DNA from: Candidatus Absconditabacteria bacterium
GTDB taxonomy: Bacteria > Patescibacteriota > Gracilibacteria > Absconditabacterales > Absconditicoccaceae
Assembly: GCA_028693445.1 (NCBI GenBank)
Contig: JAQUVI010000005.1
Location: 62,001-126,000 of the forward strand
DNA: 64,000 bases
Direction: 5' to 3'
The notes beneath the pieces are model-generated. The model was not told the origin of the DNA. It saw only the letters and a program-made list of their open reading frames with translations, and did no database searches. Shown piece after piece: positions 12,344 through 62,304 of the stretch (its first letter is position 1; each line of letters begins with the position of its first letter). The translations under genes were made by a program, and so were the position numbers.

Positions 12344-12414
12344 GAGGGATTGGTGTAGTGGTAACATGACGGTCTTCGGAACCGCAGTCGGGGGTTCAAT
12401 CCCCTCATCCCTCG
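12344..12414 (+). tRNA. tRNA with anticodon UCG, probably tRNA-Trp(UCG) for CGA/CGG
   Basis: 71 bases plus encoded CCA (12415-12417). Acceptor GAGGGAT/ATCCCTC, D arm GTGT/ACAT, anticodon arm ACGGT-CTTCGGA-ACCGC, variable loop AGTC, T arm GGGGG-TTCAATC-CCCTC, discriminator G73. Anticodon UCG reads CGA and CGG, normally Arg. In this genome CGA stands at invariant Trp sites, and the anticodon-stem sequence around CGGTCT and AACCG and G73 resemble bacterial tRNA-Trp, so tryptophan charging is the best inference. G1-C72 differs from the A1-U72 of E. coli tRNA-Trp, and the D arm also resembles tRNA-Gln, so Arg or Gln identity is not excluded by sequence alone. Confidence 0.8.
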
Positions 12415-12486
12415 CCATTTATAGGTAAGCAGAAATGCTTATTTTTTTTGATTTTTAAAAATTAATATATCTATTAAGATTAAGTT

Positions 12487-36438: not shown

Positions 36439-37290
36439 ATGCTTATGAAAACAAAAATTGTTGTCCTATTGGTGATAGGAATTGTGGCTATGTTTGTAGC
36501 AGGATGTGAAAAAGACGATATTGTCATCGATGAAAATCAGAATCTTGTTGATGATGTCTTGTCAGATGAAAATCGGCCCAAATCTTTGGGGGAGTTTGTA
36601 CCAGAAGATGATCAATTCTTCAAAGAAAATGTGTTGGACTATGATTATGAATCCGAAAGCAATATTCAGAAAAGCAGCGATGCTATGTATGATATTGTCA
36701 ATAATGCACTTTCTGTTTGGTCAATTCCTACTTATGCGTTTCGGTGTTATGATAACTATAAATGGGCGTATAGGCATGTTCGACAGCCAAATGGAACTAG
36801 TTGTTCTTGGACTTCGTATGTAATTTGTACGGGAAATATTGCTGCGGTTTGTGGTCATGATTATCCTGTAAATGTTGATCAGGTATATTTGGTTAAAAAT
36901 GGGTGTGGTGGTTCTAAGCTTATAACAAAACTTAGAGATTATGCCAATACTACCGATAGAAATATTGTAAAAGCGAGAACGATTAGTTTGCAAAAAAGCA
37001 CAACAGAGTCCTTATCTGTTTTTAAAAAAATGATGCTTTTGATGTATGTAAACAAAACTCCTTTTGTGACTATTGCTATGTCTGGAAATTATACTCATTA
37101 TGTAACAATTTATAGTATTTATTGGAAAAGAGGAATTATTGGATCTAAAATTTATTTTACTGATTCGTTGGATCCTGATCGAGGATCGTTTGATAAAAAT
37201 GTAAAATATATGGATCTTTGGGATTTCTATTGCGCCATGAAAAATAATGCCAATAGTTATTATAATTTTTTGGAATTACTTCCTCGGTAA
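36439..37290 (+). CDS. lipoprotein with C39/papain-like peptidase features
   Basis: 283 codons, ATG 36439 (or 36445) to TAA 37288. Lipobox FVAGCEKDD (Cys23), acid-rich linker, then QPNGTSCSWTSYVICTGN with a Cys at the start of a helix, GNYTHYVTIYSI with a His, and YFTDSLDPDRGSF with an Asp: the Cys-His-Asp order of C39-like peptidases. Not one UGA codon occurs although it has about 15 glycines, and it contains five CGA/CGG codons in 283, more than neighbours. That usage is unlike the host and suggests recent acquisition. Confidence 0.72.
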   Translation: MLMKTKIVVLLVIGIVAMFVAGCEKDDIVIDENQNLVDDVLSDENRPKSLGEFVPEDDQFFKENVLDYDYESESNIQKSSDAMYDIVNNALSVWSIPTYAFRCYDNYKWAYRHVRQPNGTSCSWTSYVICTGNIAAVCGHDYPVNVDQVYLVKNGCGGSKLITKLRDYANTTDRNIVKARTISLQKSTTESLSVFKKMMLLMYVNKTPFVTIAMSGNYTHYVTIYSIYWKRGIIGSKIYFTDSLDPDRGSFDKNVKYMDLWDFYCAMKNNANSYYNFLELLPR

Positions 37291-39052: not shown

Positions 39053-39433
39053 ATGCTTATCAAAGATTTTACTGATGTTCTTGCTTGGCAAAAAGCCCAA
39101 GCTTTTGCTGTGACAGCTATTACTACACTTGGTGGTAATGATGATATTACCTTGAAATATGAAATTATTAAAGCAGCATTAAGTGTGCCATCTGCTATTG
39201 CTGCTGGTTTTGAAAGACGATCTCAAGGTGAGTTCAAAGAATTTCTTTATCTTGCTAAATCAAAATCAGCAGAGGTTCGTACTTTGCTTTTGGTAGCAAA
39301 AGATATCCAAGAGATTGACCAATCAACCTGTGATGATCTTGTTTCTCAGGTCGAAGATGTTTCAAAACTTATTTATGGTTTTATAAAGACATTTATCGAC
39401 AAAAAGAAAAAAACCACAGAAGCTGTGGCTTAG
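39053..39433 (+). CDS. four-helix-bundle protein (23S rRNA IVP/S23 family)
   Basis: 126 codons, ATG 39053 to TAG 39431. FTDVLAWQKAQAFAV at the start and GFERxSQGEFKEFLYLAKS-like middle are the signature of the bacterial four-helix-bundle family named after 23S rRNA intervening-sequence proteins. No UGA codon. The family is common as orphan genes in CPR and Bacteroidota; its function is not settled. The gene stands alone between a REP element and a convergent lipoprotein gene. Confidence 0.82.
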   Translation: MLIKDFTDVLAWQKAQAFAVTAITTLGGNDDITLKYEIIKAALSVPSAIAAGFERRSQGEFKEFLYLAKSKSAEVRTLLLVAKDIQEIDQSTCDDLVSQVEDVSKLIYGFIKTFIDKKKKTTEAVA

Positions 39434-50092: not shown

Positions 50093-51727
50093 ATGAAAAA
50101 GAAATATTTTCTTTATACTAGAGTCTCAAATGATGAGTACGAAAAAAGTATAGGTAATCAAAAGGATATTCTTGAAAAGATAGCCAGAGAGAAGACTATT
50201 TTTGAGCAGATTGTGACTCCATATTATGAGGAGCATAGAGGTTGAAGTGTCGCTTGAGATAGACCTTTGTTTGAGGATATGATATGAAAACTTGAAAATG
50301 ATATGAAAGAGGCAGGGAAAAGTGTGGATAAGAGAAAATATTGATGAATTTTGTTTTTCAAAATAGATAGACTAGCTAGAAATGATAAGGATTTTGAAAG
50401 ATTACTTAGGTTGTTGGACGCATGATATGAATTTATAAGTGCTACGGAAACTATCGAAAACACACCTACTGGTAGACTACTTTTTAGAATGTTGTCTTCT
50501 TTCGCTGTTTATGAAAGTGAAAAATTAAGTAATAGGCAAAGTATTGCCAAAATCCATAATCTTATTTTACAAAAATTTGATAGCCTTTGAGGAGATATGA
50601 TAATATTTGGTTACGAATTGGATAAGGATAAAAAAGTTCAGATAAATACTAAACAATCTAATATAATTTCCAGAGCCTATGATTTATTTATAGAAAGCAA
50701 CTGAAAGATTTCATATAAAAATCTATTTGAAAAGTTAAATAAAGAAAGTAATTGAGAACTTATAAAATATATAAAAGAAAAGTGAAAAACAACACCAGAA
50801 AAATTTATTAGAAATATCATCATAAATGAGACAGCCTTCCAATATAATGGATATATAGAGATTAATATAGGAGTTAATGATGAATTGATAAAAAACTACA
50901 TAGATACAGTAACTGAGAAAAAATATGATAAATATTGATTTGTTATAGAGTGAGATTGTAAGATAGGAGGCAAGGTTAAGTTTGTCTATTTTTTGGATGA
51001 GTTGATGATAATCCCAGATTTTATATATAAAGAGAAAGAAATTATTATAAAACAAAGAGAATTTGAGAGAAAGCCTATTGATGGAAAGAAGGCTTTATTT
51101 GAAGGAATTCTTTACATTAAAAACAACTCTGAATTATATGAATTTTCTTGAAAGCCTGAGCAAAAGAAATGATTATATAATAATTATAGAAGGAAAGTCG
51201 GAGATGAAACATTTAACATTTCGGAGAAAAAGATAGATGATACAATCATCAATTCTAAGAAAGTACCAGTTATATTACATAATCTTCAGTCTCATCTTGT
51301 AGAAATTAAAAATCTATTGTTAGCTGGTAATAAAGTTAATATTTCAAAGGAACTAAAGAAGCTAACTGTTACCAATAATCTTTATAAGTGAGCTAAAGAT
51401 AGATATGCTTCATTATTAGAAATGACAAATGGAGATATAGAACAAAATACAAAGCTTTTCAAAAGATATTCTGATTTAGAAAAATCAGTTAATGATAAAT
51501 TACATTCTTTAGAACAAGACTCTATTTACGAAATTGAGAAATATTTAGAGATAATGAGGATAGAGGATTTAGGTAATCAGTCTAGTTTAATGAAAAGACT
51601 GGTCTATATTTCTCTTTTTGAAAAAATAGCTTATGAGCCCTTGGAGAAAGATAAGTTTAGAATAATTCTATATCCTTTTACCTTCTTGTCTGAATTTCTA
51701 TGACTAGCAAATGAGATTGTTATATAG
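50093..51727 (+). CDS. large serine recombinase 1
   Basis: 544 codons, ATG 50093 to TAG 51725. Resolvase domain: FLYTRVSNDE with the nucleophile Ser, IDRLARNDKDF, TIENTPTGRLLFRMLSSFAV. A recombinase domain and a long Lys/Glu-rich helical region follow. The second recombinase starts 28 bases before this stop, so the two overlap and are probably translationally coupled. UGA encodes Gly in the conserved EEHRGGSVAG segment. Confidence 0.88.
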
Positions 51728-53292
51728 CCTATGTTCGTGTGAGTTCCTATGAACAAGCGGAAAGGAATTTGAGTGTCCCTTCCCAAATAGACCAAATACA
51801 GAACTATGCCAAGCAGTCCTGAATTTTGATAAGCAAGATTTATAAAGATGAAGGTCATAGTGCATATAAAGGTAATAGACCCGCTTTCAATCAAATGCTC
51901 AAGGACGTTAAGCATAATAAGACGTGGAGAGGATTAGTCGTATTCAAATTTGATAGACTAAGCAGGAATTTAGAGGATTTTATCAAGTTGGAAAAGATAC
52001 TAAAAGACCATACTATGGACTTAGTTTCTGTGACTGAGCCTATGCTCAACAACTATCTAGGAAAATATATGGTTCGTGATATGCAGAATAGAGCTATCCT
52101 ATATTCTGAAGAGCTTAGTTTTAGAGTAAAACTTGGTTTTAGAAAGAAAATGCAGATGGGTGGCTATATAGGTGGGCACGCTCCTTATGGCTTGAAGTGT
52201 GTAAATGGATATATTCTTCCTGATGATGAAAAGGCAGAAATAGTTTCCTTTGTCTTTGAAAACTATGCTACTGGATATTTTGGATTCAAGACTTTAGCAG
52301 GATTGGTAAGAAAAACCTTCAAACTAAAAATCTTTACTCACGCTAGAGTAGAGCATATTATAGATAGTTCAATGTATTGTGGATATAAGACCAAGGAATG
52401 GAATCTTTCTAACTCTGAATATGTTTTCTGGGGCTATGATAAGCCTTGAAAGTATACCGAAGTTTATCAAATGAAATATATAACTCCTATTATTACTAAA
52501 GAGCTCTACGATAAATGCCAAATAATTAGAGAAAAAAATAATGTATGCAAGGTGGAGAGGTCTGGGACGGCTAAATTTCCTAAGATATTCCAATGTGTAT
52601 GCGGAAGAAATCTCAAAAGGGATGATAAAAAGGGGCATAGGTACTTTGGATGCACCAAACAGATGAATAACGTTTTTAGCGTAAAATGTACTCAAGGGTA
52701 TACTAATTTTAACGTCCTTGAGCCTCAGTTCAAGAATCTATTATCAAGAATCCTTTTAACAAGCAATATTAGAGAAAAGATAATCAAAGAGACAGAAACA
52801 AGAATGTCCGCAACTGAGGGGCAGAGAAATGAACAGCTTCTATGTAAGTTAAAAGAATATGAACAGGTACAGAGTAAAATATCAGACATAACAAATAGCT
52901 ATACTGCCTGAAGAATAGAGCAGGAAACCTTTGAATTGACTCTCAAAGGGGTTGGTGCTAAAGTTGCGAACCTAAAAACTGATATATCTCTTCTACAAGA
53001 TACTAAACAAACTACGGAAGCAGGTCAAAAAGTTATTAGGTTTATGAATATCTTAGAAACATATGAGCAAAAGCTCAATTCAAAGGATAAAAACGAAAAA
53101 AGTTCGCAACTGTTTCCCATTCTTTTTAAGGGGGTTGCGAACCTTATTATAGACCGTTGAAACATTAGGTCTCATCAACTATATAAGCCTTTCGATATTC
53201 TCGAAAAGAGCGATAATTTACAATGGCGGAAGATGGGGGATTCGAACCCCCGGTACCTTGCGGTACACACCGTTTCCAACGGTGCTCGTTAA
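51700..53292 (+). CDS. large serine recombinase 2, reading into tRNA-Ser
   Basis: 530 codons, ATG 51700 to TAA 53290. Resolvase domain YVRVSSYEQAERNLSVPSQ with the nucleophile Ser, FKFDRLSRNLEDF, a recombinase domain, a zinc ribbon (CVCGRN ... GCTKQ) and a coiled coil. At UGA 53158 the standard code would stop; with UGA=Gly the frame continues through GNIRSHQLYKPFD and WRKMGDSNPRYLAVHTVSN, the last part being translated from the opposite strand of the tRNA-Ser gene. This WRKMGDSNPR ending is a known mark of recombinases integrated at tRNA 3' ends. Confidence 0.85.
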
Positions 53293-53311
53293 ACCGCTCT
53301 GACAACCTTCC
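53227..53311 (-). tRNA. tRNA-Ser(GGA)
   Basis: 85 bases on the minus strand with long variable arm; CCA encoded at 53224-53226. Acceptor GGAAGGT/ATCTTCC, anticodon loop TTGGAAA (anticodon GGA, reads UCC/UCU), variable arm GTACCGCAAGGTAC, T arm GGGGG-TTCGAAT-CCCCC. Its 3' part overlaps the end of the recombinase gene on the other strand and is the likely attachment site of the island. Confidence 0.95.
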
Positions 53312-57583: not shown

Positions 57584-57856
57584 TTATTTGTTTTGAGCTG
57601 TTTTGACTATAGTAAGTATTTCTTGGATCATTTCGTGTTGTCTTTTTTTGTTGTCTGATTTGATGGCGTCTACAAAACAACAAGAAAGATGTCCTTCCAA
57701 TAATTGTAAGTTTGTAGATTTAAGTAGTCATATCACAGCAAGATTTTGTTGAATAACATCTATACAGTATTGATCGTTTTCTGCCATAGTGATTATTTTG
57801 TCTAAGAGAGTTCTTGCTTTTTTGAGAGATGTAATAGTTTTTTTGTCTGTTTTCAT
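57584..57856 (-). CDS. csoR: CsoR-family copper-sensing repressor
   Basis: 90 codons, ATG 57856 to TAA 57584-57586. Three-helix CsoR/RcnR fold with the metal-ligand triad Cys (NDQYCIDVIQQ), His (LEGHLSCC) and Cys. The conserved Cys-His-Cys pattern indicates Cu(I) sensing. It is the first gene of the operon and a palindromic operator precedes it. Confidence 0.9.
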
Positions 57857-58217: not shown

Positions 58218-58426
58218 AAGAAATATGGCAATATTTAAAAAATATTTTATTTTTAATACTTGATTCTTTTATATATTTATATGTTTCTTTATCAACAATA
58301 TATATTTGTATTTATTGGGAAAATTTGTGAATTAATTTATAAAAAGCAAATAAGTGTTTGACTTTTATTATCTAATCTTTATAGGTATTTTTTAATAAAA
58401 ACAAAAACAAATAAAAACTAAAACAT

Positions 58427-60133
58427 ATGGGAACGTCAGAGAATAACGAAGAAATTCTTCGTTTAACATCAGAAAATTTAAAACATAAGCAGACTATTTC
58501 CTATTTGTCAAAAATAGGTCAGTTCTCTTATAAAATCACAAGAAATGTTAATAAGGTATCAGATTTGACCGAGTTCTGCAAAATCATACATCAAGAATTA
58601 ATGAAAATTATTGCATGTGAAAATTTTTACATAGCATTGTATGACGATAACAGAAAAGAATTTCATTTCCCTTATCACGTAGATAAATATGATAAGATTG
58701 ATGATGATACCTATATGAAATTACCAGGTTCATTGACTGATTACATTAGAAGGTCAGGTAAAGCTATGTTGATTGACGATATCGTTGAAGATGATCTTTA
58801 TCAAAAAGATGAAATTGTTAAAATGATAGGTGAACCTACTTCTATTTGGATGGGCACTCCTTTGTTTTCGGCAGAGGAAAATGTAATTGGCGTGGTAGCA
58901 GTTCAGAATTATGAAGATAAATCTGCATATAAAGAAGCTGATTTGTCTCTTTTGAAACAGGTATCTAGATTTATTGGTGTAGAAATTGAGCTTTTGCGGG
59001 CAAAGCAAAATGCAGAAAAAGCAAATAAGCTTAAGTCTGAATTCTTGGCTAATGTATCTCATGAAATTAGGACACCTATGAATGCTATCATGGGATTTGC
59101 TGGAATATTGTCTAGGAGTGTGTTGTCTTTGGAGCAACAAGATTATTGCTATATAATAGAAACCAATGGACAAAAATTATTGGATTTATTAGACGATGTT
59201 CTTGATCTTTCGAAAATTGAGAGTGGTAATGTTGATTTAAAAATAGAAGAGGTTGATTTAAAGCCATTTTTCCAATCTATATTTTTTAATTTTACAAATA
59301 CTATTTCTCTAGACAAAAAAGAATCAATTGATATTGTCTTTTCCAATAAAAGTCCTGATATTAAAGTATATTTGGATCCAAAAAGATTGCAGCAAATTGT
59401 AGATAATTTGATTACCAATTCTATAAAATTTACAGAGAAAGGTCTTATAAAATTTGGCTATACTATTGTGAATGATTTTATAGAGATTGAGGTAAAAGAT
59501 ACTGGTCTCGGTATCGTCGAAGAATATAAAGATAAGATTTTTGAAAAGTTTTATCGTATTCAAGACGATAGATTATCAAAAAATGGTCAAGGGCTTGGTC
59601 TTGCAATTTGCAAAAGTCTTGTAACTAAAATGGGAGGAGAAATTTGGGTTGAAAATAACGATCCTTGTGGTAGTTCATTTCGTTTTAAACTACCTTATCG
59701 TCCTGTTGAAAGTGTAAAATCTTCTGATATCAAAAACAATACGGAAGTTTTTGAAGAATACCAAAAATTAGATTTTACTGATAAAGTCATTCTATTGGTT
59801 GATGATGAAAGTATTAATATTCTTTTGTTAGAAACCATTTTAAAGGCAACTAATGCAGTGTTAATTTCCGCAAAAAATTCTCAAGAGGCAATAGATTTTG
59901 TATTGGATCAAAAAATTGATTTGATATTGATGGATTGTAAAATGGATGGGAATTCCAAGGCAGGAATTTATGCAACAAAGGAAATTCTTAAACACAGGCA
60001 AATTCCTATTATTATGCAAACAGCTTATGTGAATGGTATAGAATTAGAAGCTATGCAAGCTGGCTGTGTTGGATATATTAGTAAACCTATTAATCATCAT
60101 CAATTATTGTTGATGATTAATAAATATTTATAA
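58427..60133 (+). CDS. hybrid sensor histidine kinase (GAF-HisKA-HATPase-REC)
   Basis: 568 codons, ATG 58427 to TAA 60131. GAF domain (about 45-190), HisKA with phospho-His in VSHEIRTPMN (residue 212), HATPase (NLITNSIKFT, DTGLGI, GQGLGLAICKSL), and a C-terminal REC domain with phospho-Asp in LILMDCKMD (about 503). No membrane segment. All 27 glycines are GGN and no UGA is used; one CGG (58997-58999) falls on an Arg position in ELLRAKQNAEKANKLK. This is standard-code usage and points to recent transfer, probably from a Bacteroidota-like donor. Confidence 0.93.
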   Translation: MGTSENNEEILRLTSENLKHKQTISYLSKIGQFSYKITRNVNKVSDLTEFCKIIHQELMKIIACENFYIALYDDNRKEFHFPYHVDKYDKIDDDTYMKLPGSLTDYIRRSGKAMLIDDIVEDDLYQKDEIVKMIGEPTSIWMGTPLFSAEENVIGVVAVQNYEDKSAYKEADLSLLKQVSRFIGVEIELLRAKQNAEKANKLKSEFLANVSHEIRTPMNAIMGFAGILSRSVLSLEQQDYCYIIETNGQKLLDLLDDVLDLSKIESGNVDLKIEEVDLKPFFQSIFFNFTNTISLDKKESIDIVFSNKSPDIKVYLDPKRLQQIVDNLITNSIKFTEKGLIKFGYTIVNDFIEIEVKDTGLGIVEEYKDKIFEKFYRIQDDRLSKNGQGLGLAICKSLVTKMGGEIWVENNDPCGSSFRFKLPYRPVESVKSSDIKNNTEVFEEYQKLDFTDKVILLVDDESINILLLETILKATNAVLISAKNSQEAIDFVLDQKIDLILMDCKMDGNSKAGIYATKEILKHRQIPIIMQTAYVNGIELEAMQAGCVGYISKPINHHQLLLMINKYL

Positions 60134-60138
60134 ATTTT

Positions 60139-60167
60139 GAAAAGAGGGGATTTTTCTCCTCTTTTTT
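60139..60167. terminator. bidirectional rho-independent terminator
   Basis: AAAAGAGG / CCTCTTTT stem with T-runs on both strands, between the convergent kinase and glmS genes. Confidence 0.85.
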
Positions 60168-61988
60168 TTATTTTACAGTAACACTTTTGGCGAGGTTTCT
60201 TGGCTTGTCAATGTTTTTTCATAGAATATCGGCTGTGTGATAGGCAAGTAGCTGTCCAACGATAACTGTGATAAATGGATAGATATCGTCAATTGTTTTT
60301 GGGATTTTTATGGTATAGTCAGATCCTTCTATTTCTTTGTCTGAAACTGCTATAACTTTTCCGTTTCTTGCTTTGATTTCTTGGATTGAAGATAGATTTT
60401 TTTCAAAAAGAAAATCTTGTGGACAAAATATCACACTCGGAATTTTCTCGTCAATGAGTGCCAATGGTCCATGCTTCAGCTCGCCAGAAGGATAACTTTC
60501 GGAGTGAAGATAGGTAATTTCTTTGAGTTTGAGACTACTTTCGTTGGCAATAGGAAATTGGTAATGTCTTCATAGGAAAAAGAAGTTATTGTATTTTTTT
60601 AATTCTTGTGCTAGTTCTCTGATTTGTGTTTGGTCTGCGAGGAGGTCTTCGATCATTGTGGGAACCTTGGCAAGTTCTCGCAGGATTTGTTCGTATTTTG
60701 CTTTTGGGAGAGCTCTCTTTTTCCCTAGAAATAGGGCTAATAAGAGGATACAGCTTAGCTGGGCAGTGAATGCTTTTGTCGAAGCAACTCAGATTTCGGC
60801 TCCAGCTCTCGTAAATAATCCGTAATCGGTTAGACGAGAAATAGTCGATCCTACGACATTTACGATACCAAAAGTGTGTCATCATTTCTCTTTGATCATC
60901 TTGAGTACTTCTATGCTATCTGCAGTTTCTCCTGATTGAGAAATGAAAACATAGAGTGTTTTTGAATTGACGTTGATATTTCTATATTCGTATTCGCTTG
61001 CAATTTCACAGGATGCAGGAATTCCTGCAAGGTTTTCCATCCAGAGTTTTCCTAGTGATCCTGCATTGTATGATGTACCACAACCGATGAATACAATATG
61101 TTCGAAATTTTCGTTTTGCATACCGTGAAAAGCTTCAGCATTTAATATTTTGTTTTGAAAATCTACTCTTCATTTAAAAATTCTTCTGATAATATTTGCT
61201 TGTTCAAAAATTTCTTTGAGCATAAAATGTTTGTAATTTCCTTTGGAGCTTTCTATTTCTTTGATGTCCATTTCTTCAAAAGGTTTTTGAGTTGGAATCC
61301 CTTTGGAAGTGACAGTATATTCGTTGTTTTTGATATGCAAAAGATCCCCATCTTCAAGATAGGTGAGTTGATCAACATAGCCAATAAGTCATTGTTTATC
61401 AGAAGATAAGAAAAAATTATTGTCTTTGTCGTGTCCGAAAAGAAGTGGACTTCCTATTTTTGCAGCGATCATTTCACCTGGGGCAAGCGGAGAAACTATC
61501 AATAAAGCATAAGCTCATTTGATAATCTGAAGTATTTTTTCTACGGTTTCCAAGAAGTTTCCGTTTCGATGTTCGGTCAAGAGATTGGCTATTACTTCGC
61601 TGTCGGTTTGTCCATAAAATTCGTATCATTTGGCGATAAGTTCTTGTTTGAGTTTGTGATAATTTTCGATAATTCCATTGTGGACCAGATAGAATTGTTG
61701 TTTGTTGTCGTAGTGAGGATGCGTGTTGTTTTCTGTGATTCCTCCATGAGTCGCTCGACGAGTGTGAGCAATTCCAAATGAAAATTGTTCTTCGGCGTTT
61801 ATTTCTTTTTGTACTTTTTCTGAAAGGTTGGAAACTTTGCCGATGGCTTTAACTAGTTTGATTTCTTTTTGATTTCCAACTAATAATCCGGCTGAATCAT
61901 ATCAGCGATATTCCAATCTTTTGAGTCCGTTGAGGAGAATATTTTGCGCATGGGTTTCTTTTCCTTGATATCAGAATATTCCGCACAT
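60168..61988 (-). CDS. glmS: glutamine-fructose-6-phosphate aminotransferase (isomerizing)
   Basis: 606 codons, ATG 61988 to TAA 60168-60170. N-terminal glutaminase with Cys2 nucleophile (MCGIFGYQGKE), RGYDSAGL, and HTRWATHGG where Trp is CGA (61755-61757). Two SIS domains with GCGTSYNAG, SQSGETADS and ASTKAFTAQ, and the closing KSVTVK. It makes glucosamine-6-phosphate for peptidoglycan. Length equals typical GlmS. UGA-Gly occurs in every domain. Confidence 0.96.
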
Positions 61989-62304
61989 GAGTTGATCTTA
62001 TGAGTTAAAAGTCTTAGTTTTTTCTTTCCAGTCTTTGAGTGTTAATCTCTTTATTTCTCCATGAATAATCTCTCCAGTAAGAAGTTTCCACAAAAGATAA
62101 GTAACTGCGCATTGTTCGCATTTTGTTCATCATCAAAAAGTACACCCTCACTCTTTTTCTCGGAGTTGTAAACAGAAGTTTAGTTCGTGGAGATAGGTGT
62201 CTTGCATTGAATGTTGTTTTGTGTAAAAGATTAGATTCCCGCAGCAACTGGCAAGGCGGGAATGACAATATGGATTGTCACGCTTACGCTCTCAATAACT
62301 TAGA
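61989..62304. other. 316-bp intergenic region with one REP-like element
   Basis: Between glmS and the split-barrel gene. The element AGATTCCCGC, spacer, GCGGGAATGACA (62233-62266) is the CCCGC variant of the dispersed palindrome. Short open stretches on either strand show no similarity to genes. The glmS promoter should be here. Confidence 0.5.

Follow-up and report, generated by a model that had tools for sequence, protein, structure and literature searches.

In a 64,000-nucleotide stretch of the genome of a Candidatus Absconditabacteria bacterium (hereafter the window), an open reading frame on the forward strand at positions 58427-60133 starts with ATG, runs for 568 codons to a TAA stop and is called identically with translation tables 11 and 25. 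Its 568-residue product matches the Pfam families GAF, HisKA, HATPase_c and Response_reg: a GAF sensor domain at residues 45-187 (58559-58987; PF13185, E 5.8e-12, and PF01590, E 2.1e-9), a HisKA dimerisation and phospho-acceptor domain at residues 203-267 (59033-59227; PF00512, E 2.9e-20) bearing the motif SHEIRTP and His212, a HATPase_c domain at residues 317-425 (59375-59701; PF02518, E 6.6e-27) and a receiver domain at residues 455-564 (59789-60118; PF00072, E 7.5e-19) with DD459-460, Asp503 and Lys553, all encoded on the forward strand. The phospho-accepting histidine, the HATPase_c domain and the receiver aspartate that define a hybrid histidine kinase are all present, and in the alignment with the orthologue of RAAC1_SR1 His212, Arg215 and the named receiver residues are invariant. 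From these domains, which are clear in the sequence, the product is predicted to be a cytosolic GAF-HisKA-HATPase-REC hybrid kinase, in which, by domain logic, a ligand on the GAF domain would lead to phosphorylation of His212 and transfer of the phosphate to Asp503.

A putative promoter, with TTGACTTTT at 58358 and TATAGG at 58380 (58358-58385, forward strand), precedes the gene and is of a type common to other standard-code genes, and a hairpin resembling a terminator, AAAGAGGGG-ATTTTT-CTCCTCTTT (60141-60164), lies in the gap between the kinase gene and glmS. Both elements are kept in RAAC1_SR1, the promoter with 81% identity over 78 bases and the hairpin with 84% identity over 32 downstream bases. 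The downstream neighbor, glmS (60168-61988, reverse strand), is written in the code of the host genome, and on the other side the kinase adjoins a copper-type cluster whose first gene, CsoR-like (57584-57856, reverse strand), is named by sequence resemblance and has an orthologue flanking the RAAC1_SR1 kinase. In both species a short conserved sequence, possibly a small ORF, separates the kinase side of the locus from the LeuRS side (window 62014-62268; L059:4661-4888). Elsewhere in the window, at 50093-53311, two recombinase genes adjoin each other, the first recognized by inspection of its sequence and the second by a serine recombinase domain match; the second overlaps a tRNA-Ser (GGA) at 53224-53311, and the pair may belong to an integrated element.

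The 27 glycine codons of the kinase comprise GGA (8), GGT (13), GGC (4) and GGG (2) and no UGA, and its arginine codons are CGT (4), CGG (1), AGA (6) and AGG (4), with no CGA, so that all the counts from which a preliminary description of this locus had read a standard-code kinase (0 UGA in 27 Gly, one CGG, 568 codons) are reproduced. In the source genome (G000; 1.17 Mb in 11 contigs) UGA makes up 45% of the glycine codons of genes with RAAC1_SR1 orthologues, the preliminary description having given nearly half for neighboring host genes, while the values of the nearest kinase neighbors are lower or similar (glmS 11/47, TauE-like 19/44, CopA 26/65). The probability of finding no UGA among 27 Gly is 8e-8 at the 45% rate and 7e-4 at the glmS rate, and of 81 orthologous genes that have 15 or more Gly codons only 4 are UGA-free (genomes were sampled in stretches, in this case the 400-kb samples of G000 and G002). 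Chance absence of UGA was rejected, since neither 0/27 in this gene nor 0/31 in its orthologue is probable at host rates.

Regarding the code of the host genome, the CGA and CGG codons (CGR) of host-code genes align with Trp at 178 sites and with Arg at 2, as the preliminary description had assumed. The tRNAs with anticodons UCG (12344-12417, forward strand) and CCG both carry G73 and lack A20 as read from their sequences, and these features constitute the published rule for Trp identity in such tRNAs (eLife 2021, PMC8629427). A tRNA-Arg with anticodon GCG is present, and none was found for CGA/CGG, the UCG and CCG tRNAs both being of the Trp type. Likewise, no RF2 above the cut-off was found in 22 genomes of the same family, which gave only sub-threshold, UGA-containing (RF1-like) matches, whereas the same search recovered RF2 above the cut-off in 12 of 14 outgroup genomes. 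The host genome reads UGA as Gly and CGA/CGG as Trp. Codon 191 of the kinase (58997-58999, forward strand) is the single CGG, which the standard code reads as Arg and the host code as Trp; it had been described as standing at an expected Arg, but the RAAC1_SR1 orthologue has CAG (Gln) there, and in 23 relatives the column holds A, E, S, K or I and in none an aromatic residue, so that the codon stands and the conserved arginine does not.

The genome RAAC1_SR1_1 (G002), a complete one-contig genome of the same genus, encodes a full-length orthologue of 60-62% identity without UGA among 31 Gly, placed as in the window, with LeuRS on one side and the CsoR/TauE/CopA cluster on the other. Codon 325 of this orthologue is CGA, at a site that is Lys in 22 and Arg in 2 relatives, and is thereby a more convincing example than codon 191 of the window gene. 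The synonymous divergence between the two kinases is 0.38; host orthologues show 0.32 +/- 0.07, and 0.51 would be expected at saturation. A tree that includes 22 Bacteroidota sequences among others places the two as sisters (support 100/100), a third UGA-free kinase of the genus joins them at 98/94, and the clade of three adjoins Bacteroidota, thereby falling outside the host clade, with several long branches that make deeper placements unsure. The closest match to the kinase core across 395 Bacteroidota genomes has about 40% identity and outside the genus the best result of a two-pattern scan over 84,980 species was 39%, the two together being a partial sampling of donors. In agreement with the standard-code donor proposed earlier, the kinase core groups with Bacteroidota, and sequence, synteny and tree point to a gene gained from a Bacteroidota-type donor before the split between the G000 species and RAAC1_SR1, which has held the same locus and kept the standard code ever since. 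Separately, a second kinase in the genome of a third species (G001; L061:2756-4340) stops at a TGA, after which a receiver domain is found in another frame.

These data bear directly on the earlier proposal that the gene arrived recently from a standard-code donor and had not yet been ameliorated. Such a transfer would account for the lack of UGA and for the donor-side phylogeny, but the sister species is occupied at the same locus, with shared flanks, by a UGA-free orthologue of about 61% identity and host-like synonymous divergence, and the composition is not that of a donor: third positions (GC3 of 0.189 for UGA-free genes of this kind and 0.188 for host genes in G000) and codon usage in general have already come to resemble those of the host, only the code-sensitive codons being left unchanged. 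A recent transfer was consequently rejected and we regard it as hardly tenable. The refuting condition that had been suggested, close homologues with UGA in sister species, had an outcome it did not foresee, in that descent is vertical and yet the orthologue is without UGA. An assembly chimera or misbinned Bacteroidota DNA, to which the 6% contamination estimated for the bin could lend some support, was also rejected and can almost be dismissed, because the kinase is flanked by host-code genes, the same arrangement recurs in the independent one-contig RAAC1_SR1_1 genome, and single UGA-free genes stand amid UGA-rich neighbors in many other genomes.

The preliminary description was correct in regarding the kinase as written in the standard code, but overlooked that it is one of many such genes. 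A survey of 16 genomes, about 1 Mb in all, yielded 59 ORFs poor in UGA, with 5 UGA against 2312 GGN codons, and 711 host-code ORFs, with 7725 UGA and 11295 GGN; since the UGA-poor class was picked by its lack of UGA, its UGA count cannot serve as independent evidence, which comes instead from the meaning of CGR, stop codons, synteny and composition. Five of the 59 (TyrRS, two housekeeping genes of G012, one gene of G060 and a recombinase) were removed by inspection as host-coded, because an orthologue bears UGA or TGG or the name is that of a housekeeping gene, and after these hand-picked removals the class holds 2 UGA against 2147 GGN, both UGAs lying at gene ends (PorP of G000 and a CHU_C gene of G009). 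In the 400-kb samples, long UGA-free genes are common to G000 and G002 in synteny, namely the kinase, a lipoprotein, one gene of a set of three in which Por_Secre_tail or Ig-like parts occur, and a locus of PD40, PorP and SprB that adjoins the same neighbor in a third species too; syntenic pairs of class genes also occur between G063 and G024 and between G068 and G015. At the glycine sites shared by G000 and G002, UGA is found at 0 of 156 in either species, although the third base differs at 86. The predicted lipoprotein is the second class gene in the window (36439-37290, forward strand), with 0/13 Gly as UGA and 5 CGR codons that align with Arg, Lys or Gln of the homologue G000:C11:132055, and its syntenic RAAC1_SR1 orthologue is 80% identical with 0/17; a 23S rRNA intervening-sequence protein (39053-39433, forward strand) is a possible member, its 0/5 being too few to judge. 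On these comparisons the kinase is assigned to a family-wide, Bacteroidota-like class of predicted genes in Absconditabacteria that includes T9SS-tagged surface proteins, the SprB/PorP/PD40 trio and lipoproteins. A UGA-free island of a different kind, not T9SS-like, lies in G002 at C1 ~878600-894700 (L066), with PP2C-like, SPFH-like and radical-SAM-like genes recognized by inspection, some of which have the same TTGAC-type promoters as class genes.

CGR codons and stops bear on the code in which the class genes are read. The CGR sites of the class align with R/K/Q at 19 and with W/F/Y at 3, whereas host genes have 18 sites of the first kind and 228 of the second (Fisher p 4e-16, computed on the class before the five removals). 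In the PD40 gene of three species one Arg site is written CGA, CGG and CGT, and another AGA, CGA and CGT. The CGR share of Arg is 0.19 in the class and 0.14 in low-GC Bacteroidota-type ORFs, and there is accordingly no sign of CGR purging. Several class genes end in TGA: in PorP of G000 the TGA lies in an ATGA overlap and the stop of the orthologue is TAG; in a T9SS-tagged gene of G008 (L149:8629-9882) it comes directly after the canonical T9SS end, where a host-code reading would add 57 residues; and TGA stops are also seen in PorP of G070 and in the CHU_C gene of G009. As a separate observation, an ORF of G001 with a TTGAC-type promoter (L060:11030-11560) has a TGA stop and a second stop directly after it.

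The time available for conversion was estimated with G001 as third species over 68 ortholog triples. Since the split, UGA gain per GGN site amounts to 0.21 in G000 and 0.07 in G002 by a star-tree fit, and to 0.31 and 0.06 by parsimony, so that under host-code evolution the probability of no UGA gain would be 4e-4 at the 25 shared sites of the kinase and 6e-22 at the 156 sites of six loci, loci that were themselves chosen for lacking UGA. Too little time for conversion was rejected on these polarised rates. The synonymous divergence of the six class loci pooled is 0.37, slightly above that of host genes (p 0.046), and across the 16 genomes the GC3 of class genes is correlated with that of host genes (r 0.61, p 0.012). 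The absence of UGA-Gly, CGR at Arg sites at a normal share and some TGA stops, together with third positions that are nevertheless host-like, suggest that selection works on class genes as read in the standard code. The kinase is therefore a representative of a gene class resisting code conversion, and not a fresh import.

Translation in the host code within the Absconditabacterium itself would require that UGA be selected against for expression level, timing or fidelity, with CGR at Arg sites a tolerated remnant decoded as Trp. That some UGA-rich genes have the sigma70-like promoter too agrees with this, as does the behavior of some housekeeping genes: UGA use is lower in G001 (L213-L252), where EF-G, a DnaK-like gene and others avoid it, which suggests an expression-linked avoidance separate from the class. 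However, the CGR share of Arg is unreduced, with CGR at conserved Arg sites, class genes have TGA stops, other exported proteins are UGA-rich, and the hybrid kinase, with its GGG, GGC, AGG and CGG codons, does not resemble a highly expressed gene. We thus consider host-code translation unlikely, and high expression as the sole cause was rejected, given that it leaves CGR = Arg and the TGA stops unexplained.

Renewed replacement is another, rather unlikely, route to the same pattern. Uptake of host-cell DNA and homologous recombination would overwrite the loci again and again, so that the copies follow the standard-code gene of the host at an unchanged place and in native surroundings. This would explain how CGR = Arg, TGA endings and the standard code can go together with stable loci, and for Vampirococcus both competence genes and a reliance on DNA from the host have been discussed (PMC8080830). 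Nevertheless, no close donor was encountered: the best kinase outside the genus reaches about 40%, and the best PorP about 33%, whereas the PorP proteins of the two species are 76-79% identical. Between the species, moreover, these genes differ at synonymous sites about as much as host genes do, and their GC3 tracks that of the carrier.

The upstream regions of the class bear on where its genes are transcribed. An element of the form TTGAC[AT]TT...AAAT...TA precedes 14 of 38 genes of the class and 10 of the 482 in the host code (p 1e-11, an optimistic value, as the pattern was drawn from the same regions in which it was scored). Since this promoter is sigma70-like and also found upstream of some UGA-rich genes, class genes are likely transcribed in the Absconditabacterium itself. 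Upstream of class genes the Bacteroidota -7 motif TANNTTTG shows no enrichment (0.53 per kb, against 0.86 in shuffled sequence), and Shine-Dalgarno sequences do not separate class from host genes, none being found in either (0/58 and 0/19). A shared promoter type could also mean stage-specific decoding, in which one life stage of the Absconditabacterium does without UGA and reads CGR as Arg, and to which the class would belong. A change of code from early to late genes is known in phages. Alternatively coded phages are discussed in PMC10746230. Yet no tRNA-Arg for CGA/CGG was found, the UCG and CCG tRNAs have Trp-type features and RF2 is lacking, which makes such decoding quite improbable.

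Proteins with Por_Secre_tail occur in 36 of 99 relatives, mostly of the same family and nearly all in UGA-free frames, and many class genes carry a C-terminal sorting domain of the Por_Secre_tail or CHU_C type. The SprA translocon was found in 0 of 50 relatives and, in a separate comparison, in 4 of 4 control genomes and in neither G000 nor G002; T9SS tags and PorP without SprA are what would be expected if such proteins work elsewhere. Genes for PD40, PorP/SprF and SprB/CHU_C, which are of Bacteroidota outer-membrane and T9SS types, were observed at G000:C11:47665-52479 (L091), in G002 near C1:1157000 (L079-L080) and in G001:C27 (L239), UGA-free where seen; G001 shows only PD40, at a contig end. 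In the open-access literature we found no papers linking Absconditabacteria or CPR with type IX secretion, nor any on standard-code chromosomal genes in these bacteria.

Based on these observations, we tentatively favor, as a possible rather than a probable account, a Bacteroidota-type kinase inherited in the standard code, within a class selected for standard-code reading, whose product is made in a standard-code partner cell. The Absconditabacterium would act as carrier, its DNA would pass to the partner cell, a step that is purely inferential, and the useful product would be made on the standard-code ribosomes of that partner or host cell. Production in a partner cell would be the simplest cause of selection on standard-code reading, but it is opposed by the promoter type and by the lack of any match to a VirD4-type coupling protein (PF02534) in G000 and G002, several relatives giving weak matches. 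The broader proposition, that a cellular chromosome stably inherits genes in a code foreign to its own ribosomes for reading in another cell, as a code-defined bacterial counterpart of T-DNA, we consider doubtful. If the pattern holds, genes can persist in an alternative-code genome over species lifetimes and adopt its base composition and not its code; given that shortage of time or of mutation cannot explain this, the target of selection becomes testable. It would also offer a route, from sequence alone, to Absconditabacteria genes that act inside partner cells or by way of them. For annotation, a host-code reading gives class genes false Trp residues and false C-terminal tails.

The kinase resembles Bacteroidota-type GAF/HisKA/HATPase_c/REC hybrid kinases in domain order, catalytic residues and a core 37-42% identical, and differs from them in residing in a genome of another code and in having kept the standard code from a time before two species diverged. 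It shares with horizontal transfers into alternative-code genomes a donor-type protein and standard-code codons, but the expected conversion is absent despite converted third positions and sufficient time; for Vampirococcus, extensive gene acquisition has been described, and recoding has been speculated to protect against foreign DNA (PMC8080830). Many class genes have the Por_Secre_tail/CHU_C tags of Bacteroidota type IX cargo, and one locus the SprB/PorP/PD40 genes, whereas the SprA translocon is absent and the kinase itself has no tag. If the partner-cell reading is right, the class would resemble Agrobacterium T-DNA in that genes in one cell are written for the expression system of another, although no transfer apparatus or border was found and G000 and G002 lack a VirD4 match; class genes are single loci amid host genes. 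The nearest prior report concerns the code-11-compatible phages of Absconditabacteria and Gracilibacteria, likewise standard-code DNA linked to code-25 hosts, for which the authors infer an advantage of the standard code, perhaps a wider host range (PMC10746230). Unlike those phages, the genes described here are single chromosomal genes of T9SS, kinase and lipoprotein type, fixed at their loci and inherited between species, with CGR at Arg sites and TGA stops.
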